From Bacteroidales bacterium (GTDB lineage: Bacteria > Bacteroidota > Bacteroidia > Bacteroidales > UBA932): a stretch of 64,000 nucleotides of DNA. The stretch spans positions 35,844 through 99,843 of the forward strand of contig JAFVVN010000027.1 in the NCBI GenBank assembly GCA_017502125.1, read 5' to 3'. This document shows positions 18,137 to 28,750 of this stretch, piece by piece. Below the pieces are notes generated by a model. The model saw only the letters and a program-made list of their open reading frames with translations, had not been told where the DNA came from and did no database searches. Made by a program: the position numbers and the translations under genes. The first letter of the stretch is position 1; every line of letters begins with the position of its first letter.

Positions 18137-20752
18137 ATGACATCCAAGGAAATCAGAAAAGCATTCCTCGACTTCTTCGCTTCGAAGGGTCACCAGATCG
18201 TGCCTTCGGCACCTATGGTCGTGAAGAACGACCCGACACTCATGTTCACCAACGCCGGAATGAATCAGTTCAAGGACTGGTTCCTCGGCAACAGCCCTGC
18301 GAAATGGAAGAGGGTTGCGGACAGCCAGAAATGTCTCCGCGTGAGCGGAAAGCACAATGACCTTGAGGAGGTGGGACGCGACACATATCACCACACGATG
18401 TTCGAGATGCTCGGAAACTGGAGTTTCGGAGACTATTTCAAGAACGAGGCGATCGACTGGGCATGGGAACTCCTCACAGAGGTCTACAAGCTCGACAAGG
18501 ACAGACTCTACGCAACAGTGTTCGAAGGTTCTGAGGCTGACGGCACACAGCTCGACACAGAGGCGATGGAGGCATGGAAGAGACATCTTCCTGAGGACAG
18601 GATCCTCCTTGGAAACAAGAAGGACAACTTCTGGGAGATGGGCGACACAGGCCCTTGCGGACCATGCTCCGAAATCCACATCGACCTTCGTGACGACGAG
18701 GAGAGGGCGGCAGTTCCAGGTGCGTCACTCGTGAACAAGGACCATCCTCTGGTGATCGAGATATGGAACAACGTGTTCATGCAGTATAACCGCAAGGCAA
18801 GCGGCGAGCTTGAGCTCCTTCCTAACAAGAACGTGGACACAGGAATGGGATTCGAGCGTCTTTGCATGGCTCTTCAGGGAAAGAAGTCAAACTACGACAC
18901 AGACGTGTTCACAGGAATGATCGCAAAGATCGAGGAACTTTCAGGACATAAGTACGGAGTGAACGAGCAGGAGGACATAGCAATGCGCGTGATTGCCGAC
19001 CACATCCGCGCGATCAGCTTCTCCATCGCTGACGGACAGCTTCCTTCAAACGTGAAGGCCGGATATGTGATCCGCCGAATCCTCCGCCGCGCAGTGCGTT
19101 ACGGATACACATTCCTCGGATTCAACGAGCCTTTCCTCTGCCGTCTCGTGCAGCAGCTCGTGGACGACATGGGAGAGTTCTATCCTGAGATCGTCAAGCA
19201 GCAGACCCTCATCGAGCGCGTGATCAAGGAGGAGGAGATGGCTTTCCTCCGCACTCTCGACAGAGGTATCCGCCTGATGGACAGCATCATGGCAAAATCT
19301 GCCGAGACCAAGCTCATCAGCGGTGAGGATGCATTCGTGCTCTACGACACATTCGGTTTCCCTATAGACCTTTCAGAGCTCATCGCATCCGAGAAGGGAT
19401 ATAAGATCGACCTCGAGGGATTCCAGGTGGAGCTCCAGAAGCAGAAGGACAGGGCACGTAACGCCACAGCCATCGAGTCAGGAGACTGGGTGGAGTTCGC
19501 TCACTGCGACAGCATCGAGTTCCTCGGCTACGACGCGACCGAGCTCGAAGGCGTGCAGCTGACCCGTCACCGCACCGTGAAGGCAAAGAACAAGACAATG
19601 TACCAGCTCGTGTTCGAGCGCACTCCGTTCTATGCCGAGATGGGAGGACAGGTGGGCGACACCGGATACATCCTTTCTGAAAGCGGGGAGAAGATCCAGA
19701 TCGTCAACACCATCAAGGAGAACAACCTCACCATCCATGTTGCAGAGCGCATTCCTTCAGACTGCACAGAGAGCTTCAGCCTCCATGTGGATGCGGAGAG
19801 AAGACTTCAGATAGAGAACAACCACACCGCCACCCACCTTCTCCACCAGGCACTCCGCGAGATCCTCGGAACGCATGTGGAGCAGAAGGGTTCATATGTG
19901 TGCGACAAATATTTCCGTTTCGACTTCTCACACTTCGAGAAGCTCACCGAGGAGCAGATCGACCTTGTGGAGAACCGCGTGAATGCCCTCATCAGGGCCA
20001 ACAACCCGCTCGACGAGAACCGCAACGCGACAATGGAACAGGCTCAGGAGATGGGCGCAATGGCACTCTTCGGGGAGAAGTACGGAGACACAGTCCGCGT
20101 GGTTAAGTTCGGAGACTCATGCGAGCTCTGCGGAGGTACACATGCCGCTGCTACAGGCCAGATCGGTTTCTTCAAGATCGTTTCCGAGTCTGCGATAGCT
20201 GCCGGAGTGCGCCGTATCGAGGCCACCACAGGCGTACATGCCGAACTTCTTGTGGACGGAATGGAGACCACCCTGCGTATTGCAAAGGCATTCTTCAACA
20301 ACGCTCCGGACCTCGCCGCCGCAATCAGGAAGATGGTCGAGGAAAACGAGACATACAGGAAGCAGATGGAGGAGATCGTGAAGGAAAAGACAATCACTCT
20401 CAAGAACAGTCTCAAGACGATGGGCAAGGACATCAATGGGGTCAACGTCGTTTCAATCGACTACAATGTGGATCCTGTGATGCTCAAGAACGCAGCCTTC
20501 ATGCTCCAGAAGGAGGCTCAGAACCTTGTCATTGCAGCTGCATTCGAGGCTGCAGGCAAGCCACAGCTCCTTCTCATGTACTCTGATGACCTCGTCAAGG
20601 CGGGACACAATGCAGGAGCTGACGTGCGCGAAGCTGCGAAACTGATCCAGGGCGGTGGCGGCGGACAGCCGGGACTTGCGACTGCCGGTGGAAAGAACGT
20701 GGAAGGCCTCAGCGCAGCTCTTTCAAAACTGATTGAACTCGCCACATGCTAA
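18137..20752 (+). CDS. alaS: Alanyl-tRNA synthetase
   Basis: Attaches alanine to tRNA-Ala and edits mischarged Ser/Gly. The 871-residue protein is full length: class II catalytic domain ([31 protein letters not shown]), editing domain with the zinc-binding HTATH (563-567) and CELCGGTH (662-669), and the C-terminal C-Ala domain (glycine-rich [15 protein letters not shown]). Positions agree closely with the E. coli enzyme. Its own promoter faces away from the peptidase operon. Strong use of CTC, AAG and TTC codons suggests high expression. Confidence 0.98.
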
Positions 20753-20795
20753 ATATTTAGACAAGGAGGAGCAACCTGATAGGCGGATTGGCATT

Positions 20796-20890
20796 TTGCC
20801 ACCCTCGAGAGCGACAGGCAAACGGCCCGGTGGGCTTTTGCAGCGAACAGCCTGCGGCAGCAGGAACTGGAGGGGCCAATGGAGCCGGCA
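20796..20890. repeat. GC-rich intergenic repeat, copy B (inverted)
   Basis: In the 159-base gap between alaS and the permease-Fmt gene. The core at 20817-20864 is the reverse complement of 5961-6008 with three mismatches in 48 bases. Flanking GCCACCC and GGCAGGGTG-like pieces are weaker matches to the same element. No terminator is evident for alaS, so transcription may read through it into the next gene. Confidence 0.7.
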
Positions 20891-20911
20891 GGGTGTCCGA
20901 CCATATGAATC

Positions 20912-23374
20912 ATGAAGAAGTTAGACCAGTTCATATTGAAGTCATTCATAGGACCGTTTTTCGCGATCCTTCTGGTCGTTGTGTTCATTCTCATGATGCA
21001 GTTCCTCTGGCTCTACATCGATGAACTCGTCGGCAAGGGTCTGAGTTTCAAGGTGATCCTGGAATTCCTCGGCTGGGGCAGCGCCACATTGCTGCCTCTG
21101 TCCCTTCCTCTAGCCACACTCCTGTCGTCGATGATGACACTTGGAACCCTGGGAGAGAACAACGAGCTGCTCGCCATCAAGGCTGCCGGAATATCCCTCC
21201 AGCGTGTGCTGGTGCCGCTTGCAGCTGTTTCCCTTGTGATCAGCGTCGGCGCGTTCTTCATATCCAATGACCTCATCCCGGTGGCATATAACAATATATA
21301 CCAGCTCCGCGAGGACATCGGAAGGACAAAGGAGGAGATAAAGATTCCGTCGGGAACCTTCTACAACGGCATCGAGGGCTATATCCTGCGAGTGGACGAC
21401 AGGGACGACGAGACCGGAATGATGCATGGAGTGATGGTGTACAACCACACCAAGAAGAAGGGCAACGTCAGCCTCACCATCGCCGACTCGGCCATGATGA
21501 AGATGTCAAAGAGCAAGAACTACCTGACCTTCACCCTCTACGACGGCACCAACTACGAGGAGACCAACACGAAGAAGTACAAGGACACGACCCTGCAGCT
21601 CCAGAAGATAGACTTCCACAGACAGGAAATGATCATTCCGCTGAAGAACTACGCCTTCCAGAAATCGGATTCCAGCCGGTTCAGCGACCAGGTGAAGTCC
21701 ATGAATCTTGCCCAGCTCAACGAGAGCCAGGATTCCATCGGAAAGGTCAATGAAACCGGAAGGCAGAAGAATCTGGAGTCGCTCAAAAGGTCCAGGACAC
21801 TCAGGTACAACGCCCAGCTCGACACTGCATCCAGGAAAAGGCCTGTTTCAGCCTTCGTTCCGGAGAACATAGGAGAGTGGAAGAAGATCCAGGACGAGAT
21901 CAACGCAGTGGAGAAGGCAAAGAAGAACGCAGAGGAGCTCCAGAACTCCCTGATGTCATTCTCGAGGGAGAGATACTACAACACATACACGCTCAGACTC
22001 ATAGACATCGAGATTCTGAAGAAATTCGCCCTGTCGATAGCCTGCTTCATCTTCTTCTTCATCGGAGCTCCGCTCGGAGCCCTCATCCGAAAGGGAGGAC
22101 TGGGAACGCCGGCCATAATCTCAGTACTGTTCTTCGTGGCTTATTGGGTGATCGACATCTCGGGAACCAAACTCGCCAAGGACGGCGCTGTGGGAGCATT
22201 CAGCGGAGTGTTCTTCTCCAGCTATGTGCTGCTGCCTACCGGCCTCTACCTCACATGGAAGGCAATCAATGACTCAGCTATATTCAATATGGATTCAATC
22301 CTCAACGGAATCCGAAAGATAAAGGCAATGATAACAGAAAGATTCAAGAAGACACGCATCGTATATATGGGAACCCCTGAGTTCGCTGTGGCTCCGCTCG
22401 ATGCCCTCATCAGCCAGGGCTACGAGATCGCTGGAGTTGTCACTGTGGCAGACAAGGCAAGCGGAAGGGGTCTGAAGATAAACGAAAGCGCTGTCAAGAA
22501 ATATGCAGTCGAGCACAATATCCCTGTGCTTCAGCCTGTTTCACTCAAGGACCCTGAATTCCTCGAGGCATTGAAGGCATGGAAGCCGGATCTGTTCGTG
22601 GTGGTGGCATTCAGGATGCTTCCTAAGGTGGTTTGGGAGATTCCACGCCTGGGAACCTTCAACCTTCACGCCGCCCTCCTGCCTCAGTACCGTGGCGCGG
22701 CCCCTATCAACTGGGCTGTGATCAACGGTGACAAGGCCACGGGAGTAACCACCTTCATGATCGACGACGGAATGGACACCGGAAAGATCATGTTCAGGGA
22801 GCAGTGTCTCATCGGTCCGGACGAGACGGTGGGAGAGGTGCACGACAAGCTCATGCAGATCGGTTCCGACCTCGTGGTCCAGACCGTGGAGGCCATAATC
22901 GAGAACAATGTGGATATGCGCGTACAGAGCAGCTTCGTCCAGGGCTCGGAGATTCTTCGTCCTGCCCCTAAGCTCACCAGGGAGCTCTGCCACATAGACT
23001 GGAACGGAAAGACAAGACATATATACAACCTCATCAGAGGCCTCAGTCCATACCCGGCCGCATTCACCGAGCTGGTCAAGGACGACAAGGTGCTGCAGAT
23101 GAAGATATACAAGGCTGTGAAGGTGGAAGGCGAAGCATATGCAGCTATGCTTTCAGCCTGCAGTCTTGAGGCCGCCGCACCGGGTACCGTGCTTTCCGAC
23201 GGCAAGACCTTCCTTGCATTCGCCACAGCTGACGGCGCCGTTTCAGTGACGGAACTCCAGCTGGCTGGAAAGAAGAGGATGCCGGTCAAGGACTTCCTGA
23301 TCGGATTCCGGGAGCCTCAGAGCTATACCACCACCAAGGGAACATCATCACAGGTCACTGGAAAGCATGCGTAA
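20912..23374 (+). CDS. fmt: Fused LptF/LptG-type permease and methionyl-tRNA formyltransferase
   Basis: One uninterrupted 820-codon frame with two families. Residues 1-465 form a YjgP/YjgQ (LptF/LptG) permease of the LPS export ABC system: membrane helices near 12-35, 52-75 and 100-122, a periplasmic beta-jellyroll region, and three helices at about 365-460. Residues about 473-820 form methionyl-tRNA formyltransferase, which formylates initiator Met-tRNA: RIVYMGTPEF, LLPQYRGAAPINWAV and MDTGK. Catalytic Asn584, His586 and Asp622 keep the E. coli spacing (106, 108, 144). An ATG at residue 473 (22328) could allow separate Fmt translation. Both permease ends should be cytoplasmic, so Fmt would be membrane-tethered on its proper side. 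It overlaps the next gene by 8 bases. A lost stop codon from a sequencing error is the main alternative. Confidence 0.9.
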   Translation: MKKLDQFILKSFIGPFFAILLVVVFILMMQFLWLYIDELVGKGLSFKVILEFLGWGSATLLPLSLPLATLLSSMMTLGTLGENNELLAIKAAGISLQRVLVPLAAVSLVISVGAFFISNDLIPVAYNNIYQLREDIGRTKEEIKIPSGTFYNGIEGYILRVDDRDDETGMMHGVMVYNHTKKKGNVSLTIADSAMMKMSKSKNYLTFTLYDGTNYEETNTKKYKDTTLQLQKIDFHRQEMIIPLKNYAFQKSDSSRFSDQVKSMNLAQLNESQDSIGKVNETGRQKNLESLKRSRTLRYNAQLDTASRKRPVSAFVPENIGEWKKIQDEINAVEKAKKNAEELQNSLMSFSRERYYNTYTLRLIDIEILKKFALSIACFIFFFIGAPLGALIRKGGLGTPAIISVLFFVAYWVIDISGTKLAKDGAVGAFSGVFFSSYVLLPTGLYLTWKAINDSAIFNMDSILNGIRKIKAMITERFKKTRIVYMGTPEFAVAPLDALISQGYEIAGVVTVADKASGRGLKINESAVKKYAVEHNIPVLQPVSLKDPEFLEALKAWKPDLFVVVAFRMLPKVVWEIPRLGTFNLHAALLPQYRGAAPINWAVINGDKATGVTTFMIDDGMDTGKIMFREQCLIGPDETVGEVHDKLMQIGSDLVVQTVEAIIENNVDMRVQSSFVQGSEILRPAPKLTRELCHIDWNGKTRHIYNLIRGLSPYPAAFTELVKDDKVLQMKIYKAVKVEGEAYAAMLSACSLEAAAPGTVLSDGKTFLAFATADGAVSVTELQLAGKKRMPVKDFLIGFREPQSYTTTKGTSSQVTGKHA

Positions 23375-24026
23375 GACAGTTGTCATAATATGTGACGGGC
23401 AGTTTCCTAAAAGCGAATATCCCCGTTACCTGATCCGCACGGCAGACTTCCTTGTCTGCTGCGACGGTGCCTTGAGGAAGTTCATCAGAAACAGCAAGGG
23501 AATATTCGGTGCCGAGAGGCTGCCTGACCTCGTGATCGGAGACATGGACACCCTGCCGGTTTCCTGGCAGAAGAAATATGCAGACATCATCATCAGGGAG
23601 ACCGAACAGGAACACAACGACCAGACCAAGGCAGTGAGGTGGGTGCTCGGAAACATCCCGGACATAGACTATATATATATATTAGGGTCAACGGGCGGCC
23701 GCGCCGACCACACCATCGGCAATCTGTCCCTTCTCATGGAGTATACAAGGATGTTCGACCTCGGTGAGATAACCATCGAAGCCGTAACCGACGAGGGTAC
23801 CGCATTCGCTGTGAACGACACTACTGAATTTGACTGCGGCATAGGAAGACAGGTGTCGATATTCTCACCGGACAACAGTCTGAACATAAGGTCTGAAGGT
23901 CTTGAATATCAGACAGAGGGCGTGATCTTCGACAACTGGTGGAAGGCCACTCTGAACAAGGCGGTCCGGGACAATGTGCGGCTGGAATTCAGCCACAGGT
24001 CGATGGCTCTGATAATATTGGACTGA
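23367..24026 (+). CDS. Thiamine pyrophosphokinase
   Basis: Converts thiamine to thiamine diphosphate using ATP. The 219-residue protein shows the family pattern: CCDGALRKF, PDLVIGDMDTLP, the EHNDQTKAVRW substrate/metal motif, and LGSTGGRADHTIGNLSLL. The C-terminal half is the thiamine-binding beta-sandwich. Its ATG overlaps the end of the permease-Fmt gene by 8 bases (ATGCGTAA), indicating translational coupling. Confidence 0.95.
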   Translation: MRKTVVIICDGQFPKSEYPRYLIRTADFLVCCDGALRKFIRNSKGIFGAERLPDLVIGDMDTLPVSWQKKYADIIIRETEQEHNDQTKAVRWVLGNIPDIDYIYILGSTGGRADHTIGNLSLLMEYTRMFDLGEITIEAVTDEGTAFAVNDTTEFDCGIGRQVSIFSPDNSLNIRSEGLEYQTEGVIFDNWWKATLNKAVRDNVRLEFSHRSMALIILD

Positions 24027-26516: not shown

Positions 26517-27614
26517 CTACTTCGGAGCTATCCTGTAAAGGAATCCGGCTATGACCGCAAACACCACATTCGGCAGCCAAAGGGCTATTGACGGCGGGAG
26601 AGTGTCCGTGTAGACGAACATCTGACTGAATCGCAGGAAGAGGATGTAGGTGAATGCCAGCGCAATGCCGATACCTATGTTCCATCCAATACCTCCCCTT
26701 CGCTTCTTTGAAGAAAGAGCCACACCCATTATAGTCAGGATGAAGGCTGAGAAAGGAAGGGCAAAGCGCGTATTCTTCTCGATGAGGGCGAACTTCACGT
26801 TGCCGTCTCCCCTCATCCTCTGGGTATCAATCAGTTCATTGAGTTCCGAATATGTCAGAGTCTCCACCGTCTTTTCATTAAGATAGAAGTCCTTCGGAGA
26901 GAGAGCCAGAACCGTGTCTATCTGCTTTCCGCTACGGATATTGTCGGTAAGGTCCTCGTTGTATTCCCTGATGAAATATTTCTTGAGTTTCCATACTCCC
27001 TTTGTCGTGTCATACACCGCAGTCTCTGCCGAGAGTTTCGAGACAAGCCTGTGGTCCCTTATCTCCTCAAGTGTGAACCTGTAGGCGGTGTTGTTCCAGG
27101 AACTGAAGGATTCTGCGAAGACGAACTCACCGGGAGCGATCTGGTAGTGCACGTTCCTTCCCACACTCTTGGTCCTTTCCTTTATATACTGGTTCTCGAA
27201 ATCGAGCCTCGTCTTGTTGGCCTCCGGAATGATGAAGAGGTTCAGACAGAGTGAAAGGATCGCGATCAGGGTCGCCGAGAACATATAGGGAACCATCATT
27301 CTATGGAAACTGATTCCACAGGACAGGATGGCGACTATCTCGGAATCGGCAGCCATCTTCGAGGTGAAGAATATCACCGTTATGAACACGAACAGAGGAC
27401 TGAACATGTTCATGAAATATGGGATGAAGTTGATGTAATAGTCGAATATGATGGCCCCAAGCGGCGCTTCCTTCTCCACAAAGTCATCGATCTTCTCACT
27501 GATGTCGAAGATGATGACGATGCCGATGATAAGAAGCAGCGCCACAAAGAATGTGGATATGAACTTGCTGACGATATATGCATCAAGTCGCTTAGGTCTG
27601 AGGTCGAACTTCAT
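26517..27614 (-). CDS. LptF/LptG-type LPS export permease
   Basis: A 365-residue inner-membrane permease of the YjgP/YjgQ family, partner in the LptB2FG transporter that lifts LPS toward the outer membrane. It shows three N-terminal helices, a periplasmic beta-rich domain (about 130-265) and three C-terminal helices. AILSCGISFHRMMVPY and FALPFSAFILTIMGVALSSKKRRGG are typical family blocks. I start it at 27614 (MKFDLRP), five bases after the tgt stop; the longer form would overlap tgt by 43 bases. The fused permease at 20912 is the probable heterodimer partner. Confidence 0.93.
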   Translation of the reverse strand: MKFDLRPKRLDAYIVSKFISTFFVALLLIIGIVIIFDISEKIDDFVEKEAPLGAIIFDYYINFIPYFMNMFSPLFVFITVIFFTSKMAADSEIVAILSCGISFHRMMVPYMFSATLIAILSLCLNLFIIPEANKTRLDFENQYIKERTKSVGRNVHYQIAPGEFVFAESFSSWNNTAYRFTLEEIRDHRLVSKLSAETAVYDTTKGVWKLKKYFIREYNEDLTDNIRSGKQIDTVLALSPKDFYLNEKTVETLTYSELNELIDTQRMRGDGNVKFALIEKNTRFALPFSAFILTIMGVALSSKKRRGGIGWNIGIGIALAFTYILFLRFSQMFVYTDTLPPSIALWLPNVVFAVIAGFLYRIAPK

Positions 27615-27619
27615 TTCCG

Positions 27620-28750
27620 TTAAAGTCTTGTCGTTATTCTGCGGACTGTCTCGTCCTTCCATGCCTTGAAGTCTCCTGCCTTGATGTGCTTGCGGGCCTC
27701 GCGTACGAGATCAAGATAGAAGGCAAGGTTATGCTCGCTGGCAATCTGTCCGGCGAATATCTCTCCTGCCACGAAAAGATGACGAAGATATGCTTTTGTA
27801 TATGTATGGTCTACGAATGACGTACCCTTAGGATCGAGCGGGGAGAAGTCGTCCGCCCACTTCTTGTTCTTCATGTTGATGATTCCGTCCCAGGTGAACA
27901 ACATGCCGTTGCGACCGTTTCTGGTCGGCATCACACAGTCGAACATATCGACTCCGCGGGCGATTCCCTCAAGTATGTTGGCCGGAGTTCCCACTCCCAT
28001 GAGGTAGCGCGGTTTGTCCTCCGGAAGGATAGGACACACGATCTCAAGCATCTCATACATCTTTTCTGTCGGTTCCCCCACAGCGAGACCTCCTATAGCA
28101 TAACCTTCACGGTCAAGCGCTGCAGCATGTTCGACAGCCTCACGCCTGAGGTCGGGATAGACACATCCCTGAATTATAGGAAAGAGGGCCTGGGAATATC
28201 CATATAGCGGTTCTGTCTCATCAAAATGCTTCACGCATCTCTCCAGCCACCTCTGAGTGAGCTTCAGGGACTTCTTCGCATAGTCGAAGGTTGCATCACC
28301 CGGACAGCACTCGTCAAGAGCCATCACGATGTCTGCTCCGATTATCCTCTGGGTGTCCATATTGTTCTCCGGAGTGAAGATATGCTTGGATCCGTCAATA
28401 TGCGAACGGAATATGCAGCCGTCCTCGGTCAGTTTCCTGATCGGGCTGAGGGAGAACACCTGGAATCCGCCGCTGTCCGTGAGGATGGGCCTGTCCCATG
28501 ATTCGAACTTATGGAGTCCTCCGGCGGCCTTGAGCACATCAAGACCGGGACGAAGGTAGAGATGGTATGTGTTGCCAAGAATGATCTCCGCCTTTATGTC
28601 TTCCTTGAGGTCACGGTGGTATATACCTTTGACAGAACCTACAGTGCCGACAGGCATGAATATAGGGGTCTCTATCTGACCATGATCAGTGGTTATCACA
28701 CCGCAGCGTGCGGCACAGTTGGGGTCATTATGTGTCTTGACAAACTTCAT
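27620..28750 (-). CDS. tgt: Queuine/preQ1 tRNA-ribosyltransferase
   Basis: Exchanges guanine for preQ1 at the wobble position of GUN-anticodon tRNAs. The 376-residue protein has the TIM-barrel blocks ILGNTYHLYLRPG, LTDSGGFQVFSL, IGGLAVGE and FDCVMPTRNGRNG (with the nucleophilic Asp). The usual zinc motif CxCxxC is replaced by KGTSFVDHTYTKAYLRHL, so three zinc cysteines are absent; I recall this from other Bacteroidota Tgt sequences. I start at 28750 because the -7 box at 28769-28776 overlaps the earlier ATG at 28771. Confidence 0.95.
   Translation of the reverse strand: MKFVKTHNDPNCAARCGVITTDHGQIETPIFMPVGTVGSVKGIYHRDLKEDIKAEIILGNTYHLYLRPGLDVLKAAGGLHKFESWDRPILTDSGGFQVFSLSPIRKLTEDGCIFRSHIDGSKHIFTPENNMDTQRIIGADIVMALDECCPGDATFDYAKKSLKLTQRWLERCVKHFDETEPLYGYSQALFPIIQGCVYPDLRREAVEHAAALDREGYAIGGLAVGEPTEKMYEMLEIVCPILPEDKPRYLMGVGTPANILEGIARGVDMFDCVMPTRNGRNGMLFTWDGIINMKNKKWADDFSPLDPKGTSFVDHTYTKAYLRHLFVAGEIFAGQIASEHNLAFYLDLVREARKHIKAGDFKAWKDETVRRITTRL

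Follow-up and report, generated by a model that had tools for sequence, protein, structure and literature searches.

A long-kept gene fusion joins an LptF-like permease to methionyl-tRNA formyltransferase in a group of gut Bacteroidales

LptF and LptG are permeases with six membrane helices and both ends in the cytoplasm; the structures of LptB2FG place the C-terminus of LptF on the cytoplasmic side, and LptF is regarded as a dedicated lipopolysaccharide exporter. Methionyl-tRNA formyltransferase (Fmt) is generally taken to be a free cytosolic enzyme. ArnA, a formyltransferase-dehydrogenase fusion, acts on a UDP-sugar and is not known to have a permease part. In the DNA analysed here, a 64,000-nucleotide stretch from a Bacteroidales bacterium (the window), an LptF-like permease and Fmt are encoded by one gene (Table 1). 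A literature search, with subscription journals and protein databases outside its scope, returned no report of an LptF-Fmt fusion. The evidence set out below confirms that this is a real gene fusion that has long been kept in a group of gut Bacteroidales.

A permease and a formyltransferase in one frame

The fused frame starts with ATG, has no internal stops and encodes 820 amino acids, with a full-length LptF/LptG permease at residues 7-450 and a full-length Fmt at residues 482-802. An earlier note on this DNA had reported a single 820-codon frame holding both proteins, each complete, and the open frame together with the Pfam and NCBIfam matches confirms that observation as a whole. The permease part matches the Pfam family LptF_LptG (PF03739) with 227.6 bits against a cut-off of 27.9, over profile positions 2-353 of 353. 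The earlier note had left its identity at 'LptF/LptG'; the family assignment stands and can be narrowed to LptF-like, since by NCBIfam scores this half appears closer to LptF (147.2 bits, cut-off 230) than to LptG (90 bits, cut-off 240), both scores lying below the equivalog cut-off. Its hydropathy profile has hydrophobic stretches on either side of a large hydrophilic centre (residues about 120-365), not six clean helices, and the LptF and LptG chains of known structure align with it inside residues 3-229. The presumed partner of the fused LptF is a second permease encoded 3 kb from the fusion gene, which scores 166 bits as LptG against 140.5 bits as LptF and is likewise below the LptG equivalog cut-off. 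LptB (360.8 bits, cut-off 240) and peptide deformylase are also present in the genome, so that with the LptG-like permease the parts that we sought of both pathways exist.

The Fmt half consists of Formyl_trans_N (PF00551, 126.2 bits, residues 482-658) and Formyl_trans_C (PF02911, 77.1 bits, residues 687-799), and the NCBIfam fmt model TIGR00460 reaches 227.1 bits against a cut-off of 201.5. By a hand count along the alignment, N584, H586, D622 and R519 correspond to N108, H110, D146 and R42 of 1fmt_A, which bears out the earlier claim that the catalytic Asn584, His586 and Asp622 keep the E. coli spacing. We take positions 108, 110 and 146 of E. coli Fmt to be the catalytic Asn, His and Asp, and Arg42 is presumably the loop residue used in tRNA recognition. 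All four residues are invariant in 54/54 aligned fused proteins (the window's protein and 53 of the 80 named loci described below). Both halves are under similar purifying selection, with median dN/dS values over 10 close pairs of 0.050 for LptF and 0.048 for Fmt. An Rfam scan of the window at the gathering threshold gave zero matches.

Table 1. Features of the fusion gene and its neighbours in the window
Feature	Position	Strand	Evidence
alaS, upstream neighbour	18137..20752	+	TIGR00344, 885.7 bits
lptF-fmt fusion gene, 820 codons and stop	20912..23374	+	uninterrupted in 92/101 genus genomes
LptF-like permease part, residues 1-450	20912..22261	+	PF03739, NCBIfam scores, hydropathy
Linker, residues 451-481, basic amphipathic, nearly fixed length in genus	22262..22354	+	hydropathy, alignment
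Internal in-frame ATG, codon 473, possible secondary start	22328..22330	+	sequence; conservation tests
Fmt catalytic domain, residues 482-658	22355..22885	+	PF00551 and TIGR00460
Catalytic N584 and H586 codons	22661..22669	+	align to 1fmt N108, H110; invariant 54/54
Catalytic D622 codon	22775..22777	+	aligns to 1fmt D146; invariant 54/54
Fmt C-terminal domain, residues 687-799	22970..23308	+	PF02911
thiN, thiamine diphosphokinase	23367..24026	+	TIGR01378, 95.3 bits (cut-off 76.4)
Second permease (LptG-like), putative partner of the LptF half	26517..27662	-	PF03739, 250.8 bits

A second, free Fmt was sought in the window's own genome with PF00551 and in the family genomes with TIGR00460, and in the own and the other same-genus genomes only the fused copy was found. 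The own genome, which is 78% complete, has one PF00551 match, and 11 same-genus genomes including it have one TIGR00460 match each at E<=1e-30, always the fused gene. Weaker matches in some genomes of the genus (E 4e-4 to 4e-17) look like other formyltransferases.

Distribution, gene order and history

Among named relatives, Candidatus Cryptobacteroides species and other Bacteroidales come closest, and their gut sources include deer, goat, sheep, buffalo, yak and horse; the best 80 of 251 named loci all contain a fused frame, 760 aa long or more. Samples of the genus, family, order and phylum were then surveyed. Within the genus, an uninterrupted frame of 791-996 aa spans both parts in 92/101 genomes (hand count), and in the remaining nine the gene appears only in pieces, is truncated at contig ends or was not detected. 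It is divided exactly at two contig ends in G093, is represented only by fragments near a contig start in G010 and G004, and in G025 has the fused junction but is broken within LptF; G014, G046, G047, G062 and G082 have no Fmt over the cut-off, and the fused query gives weak (E 6.8e-12 to 3.1e-5) or no matches there. G047 and G082 are 95% complete and have neither an Fmt over the cut-off nor a clear LptF, through either a missing contig or real loss. One further genome, G059, carries two distinct copies of the fused gene, on contigs C164 (locus L011) and C90, with 79% and 77% identity to the window's; either strain mixing or duplication would account for them.

In the family sample, 137/149 genomes have an Fmt match at E<=1e-30, of which 49 are fused (frames of 684-856 aa) and 88 separate (142-396 aa), counting by hand the best match per genome; a few of the 88 (e.g. 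G232) reach a contig end and their scoring is uncertain. Separate genes in all close relatives, the case that the earlier note had set against its own proposal, is thus not what we find: fused frames occur in nine of the 24 genera with a match (coded g1, g2, g3, g5, g6, g15, g16, g17 and g23), and g2 and g23 have both fused and separate members. A laxer re-search of 22 genomes (the nine remaining genus genomes, G097 and the 12 of the family sample that had given no match) gave matches in 16; one of the 12, G200 (g15), proved to be fused but truncated where its contig stops. In other families of the order, 276 genomes had a match and none of them a fused frame; in at least one (G419) the contig stops immediately ahead of Fmt. 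The phylum-wide sample yielded an Fmt match in 157/158 genomes and, leaving aside the window's own, 0/156 fused; two genomes of this sample have long Fmt frames, of 523 and 457 aa, which were considered as fusions and rejected, there being no LptF match inside.

The fusion lies where its two genes lie when separate. Fused loci with enough flank have the order alaS, lptF=fmt and usually thiN, most separate relatives have alaS, lptF, fmt and often thiN, and alaS precedes lptF in most loci of the family whose upstream DNA reaches far enough. Spacing between separate lptF and fmt, by the first start codon, is -158 to +74 nt, with many overlaps of 4-41 nt. The two genes are 1.2 kb apart in g7 and g8, and in g9, g20 and g24 (one locus each) no lptF was found next to fmt, with just 0.86 kb of upstream DNA available for g20. 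Among 95 fetched family loci, lptF-fmt is the sole fused pair; it is fused in 37 and abuts unfused in 50. The abutting pairs that are never fused in these 95 loci include alaS-lptF (70), fmt-thiN (66), m23a-m23b (57), merR-nif3 (29) and tgt-lptG (26). NCBIfam supplied the names of the window's alaS, thiN, ilvA, ilvE and tgt, and merR, nif3, zf, dnaB, mfs and M23 are our own labels. The fusion may have arisen because lptF and fmt abut or overlap, in which case a small indel at their junction would suffice to join the frames.

Several details of these neighbourhoods deserve mention in their own right. In the window, the last 8 nt of the fusion gene are shared with the start of thiN, and the gap between alaS and the fusion gene (20753-20911) is 159 nt, compared with 30 nt or less between alaS and lptF in 70/95 family loci. 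Three g6 loci (L177, L178 and L213) have tgt, lptG, alaS, lptF=fmt and thiN in one row on one strand, an arrangement by which both Lpt permeases may share an operon. An N-terminal extension of AlaS in L273 and L274, considered as a second fusion, was discarded on reading by eye as a frame antisense to a divergent M23 gene.

Phylogenetic analysis points to a fusion that either happened more than once or was later reversed. The AlaS tree, built from 88 loci, places all 44 fused rows within a single clade of 50 (SH-aLRT 99) that also contains six separate rows, and three changes between the fused and separate states are needed; the fused g23 genome is absent from this tree, its contig having no alaS. 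The same picture comes from a concatenated tree, which covers 35 loci (17 fused, 18 separate) and rejects a single fused clade (p-AU 1.2e-6, on a set chosen after the earlier trees). One fusion followed by two splits would fit these trees, as would three fusions, and gain and loss cannot be told apart because three changes are needed either way. In the LptF-Fmt tree, the fused g23 gene sits among separate relatives, and its junction has neither the lptF stop nor the fmt start of those relatives; as this case is one genome, an error there is possible. The AlaS of four g16 loci (L273, L274, L275 and L284) groups with the Cryptobacteroides genus and not with other g16, a hint of alaS transfer or of a loosely defined genus.

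Form of the gene product

The interpretation offered in the earlier note is partly supported, and of its ideas tethering at the inner membrane appears to fit best. We consider it probable, at roughly 0.65, that a bona fide fusion makes one membrane protein and that the tethered Fmt works as the cell's only Fmt. The LptF half, as a putative member of LptB2FG, would act with LptG and LptB to extract lipopolysaccharide; its predicted cytoplasmic C-terminus would continue through the basic amphipathic tail into the first strand of Fmt, and Fmt, active while tethered, would formylate initiator Met-tRNA as the sole enzyme of its kind. Formylation would then be held at the inner membrane, with the amount of Fmt coupled to that of LptF. 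Such a join would be tolerated because the C-terminus of LptF is cytoplasmic and both domains are intact, and little would be lost at it, since the linker looks like LptF's own tail. For the stronger statement, that an integral membrane protein belonging to the lipopolysaccharide exporter performs all initiator-tRNA formylation, that the cell has no free Fmt, and that this has arisen more than once, we put the odds at even.

Other explanations can be weighed against the same data. The relatives are uncultured metagenome bins or other genomes, in which an assembly or sequencing error might have deleted a stop codon; such an artefact is nevertheless hardly conceivable here, because 92/101 genus genomes, taken as one genome per species and with 58-100% identity, share the uninterrupted frame, as do all 80 of the best named loci. 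This conservation excludes chance or mis-assembly and rules out a missed stop for the genus, and only the single g23 case is still open to it. Alternatively, a protease might cut the fusion in the linker and free LptF and Fmt. The linker is poorly conserved (mean amino-acid identity about 0.4, windows of residues 453-479) and, with a median dN/dS of 0.121 from five usable pairs, evolves faster than both domains; its length, however, varies between genera, and by eye it resembles the tail of separate LptF proteins, and we regard cleavage as improbable. The linker's hydrophobic moment is exceeded in only 1.7% of all windows. A further possibility is that tethering itself serves a function, such as matching the capacity for formylation to envelope growth or placing formylation near membrane-bound ribosomes. 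This would be in keeping with lptF-fmt being the sole abutting pair to fuse, with its having fused more than once or later undergone fission, and with its strong conservation within the genus, but separate relatives in the family manage without the fusion, and a fusion between overlapping neighbours can last without conferring any advantage; we think such a function unlikely, if less so than cleavage.

The gene might also give two products, the fusion and a free cytosolic Fmt translated from an ATG near codon 473-478. The in-frame ATG to which the earlier note drew attention at 22328 is indeed present, as codon 473, and in 86/95 distinct genes of the genus the 14 codons preceding the Fmt core (R482) include an in-frame ATG, a retention that, at a guess, exceeds chance. 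Its position varies: it is at -7 in 69/95 and at -9 in the window. Genes without the -7 ATG tend to have another one (17/26, vs 12/69 of those with it), but when placed on the tree this compensation is not significant (8 pairs, median p 0.22); loss of any junction ATG takes just 4 changes on the genus tree. Outside the genus, the junction ATG is missing in 16/18 distinct fused genes: two have an ATG within 14 codons, six have GTG or TTG, and ten have none of the three. Synonymous change also speaks against a second start in the genus, where the true start is constrained (codons 1-15, 0.648, rank 0.016, in the lowest 2% of windows) and the Fmt start is not (0.988, rank 0.96, for -5 to +9 around MGTP; 0.875, rank 0.29, for -10 to +4). 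The Fmt start is similarly free of synonymous constraint in g6 and g15 (ranks 0.70 and 0.76). At the fused junction of g16, on the other hand, synonymous change is low, as might be seen at a start site (0.702, rank 0.019, again the lowest 2%); separate fmt genes of g4, g11 and g22 give 0.77-0.81 (ranks 0.04-0.13) and 0.75-0.83 at the two places around the Fmt start that were scored in the genus. True starts in g15 and g16 show no constraint (ranks 0.74 and 0.80), so that the test is weak there. In 1/110 genus genes (duplicates kept), the 300 nt ahead of the junction contain TAnnTTTG, which we take to be a promoter-like pattern of Bacteroidota. Collectively, the ATG and synonymous-change evidence favours the fused protein as the main product and leaves room for an extra free product in the genus; we judge the production of both forms to be somewhat unlikely.

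Significance and comparison with known systems

In many species an enzyme taken to be free and a dedicated exporter are combined in a single protein, and no other Fmt gene was found in the same-genus genomes examined for one. Should the tethered form be the working one, it would show that a reaction needed ahead of each translation start can take place at the membrane, and Fmt would stand in a fixed ratio to an envelope transporter. The gene is also a case for annotation, as either name alone hides half of it, and the fused, separate and newly fused sister species constitute a natural experiment.

How the fusion relates to described proteins can be seen from each of its parts. Like known LptF proteins (PF03739; e.g. 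6mit_F and 5l75_F), it has a full PF03739 match and is accompanied by an LptG-like permease and LptB in the same genome; unlike them, it bears a 340-residue enzyme at its C-terminus and scores below the LptF equivalog cut-off. With known Fmt (TIGR00460; 1fmt) it shares both domains, a score over the cut-off, the catalytic N, H and D and the equivalent of R42, although the fused Fmt runs on from a membrane protein without a start of its own. ArnA resembles it in having a formyltransferase of the same superfamily joined to another enzyme, and the ArnA model does match the Fmt half, but with 144.9 bits, far below its cut-off of 777. The closest counterparts are the neighbouring lptF and fmt genes of the same family, which occupy the same place, in the order alaS, lptF, fmt and usually thiN, and differ from the fusion in being two frames that overlap or abut.
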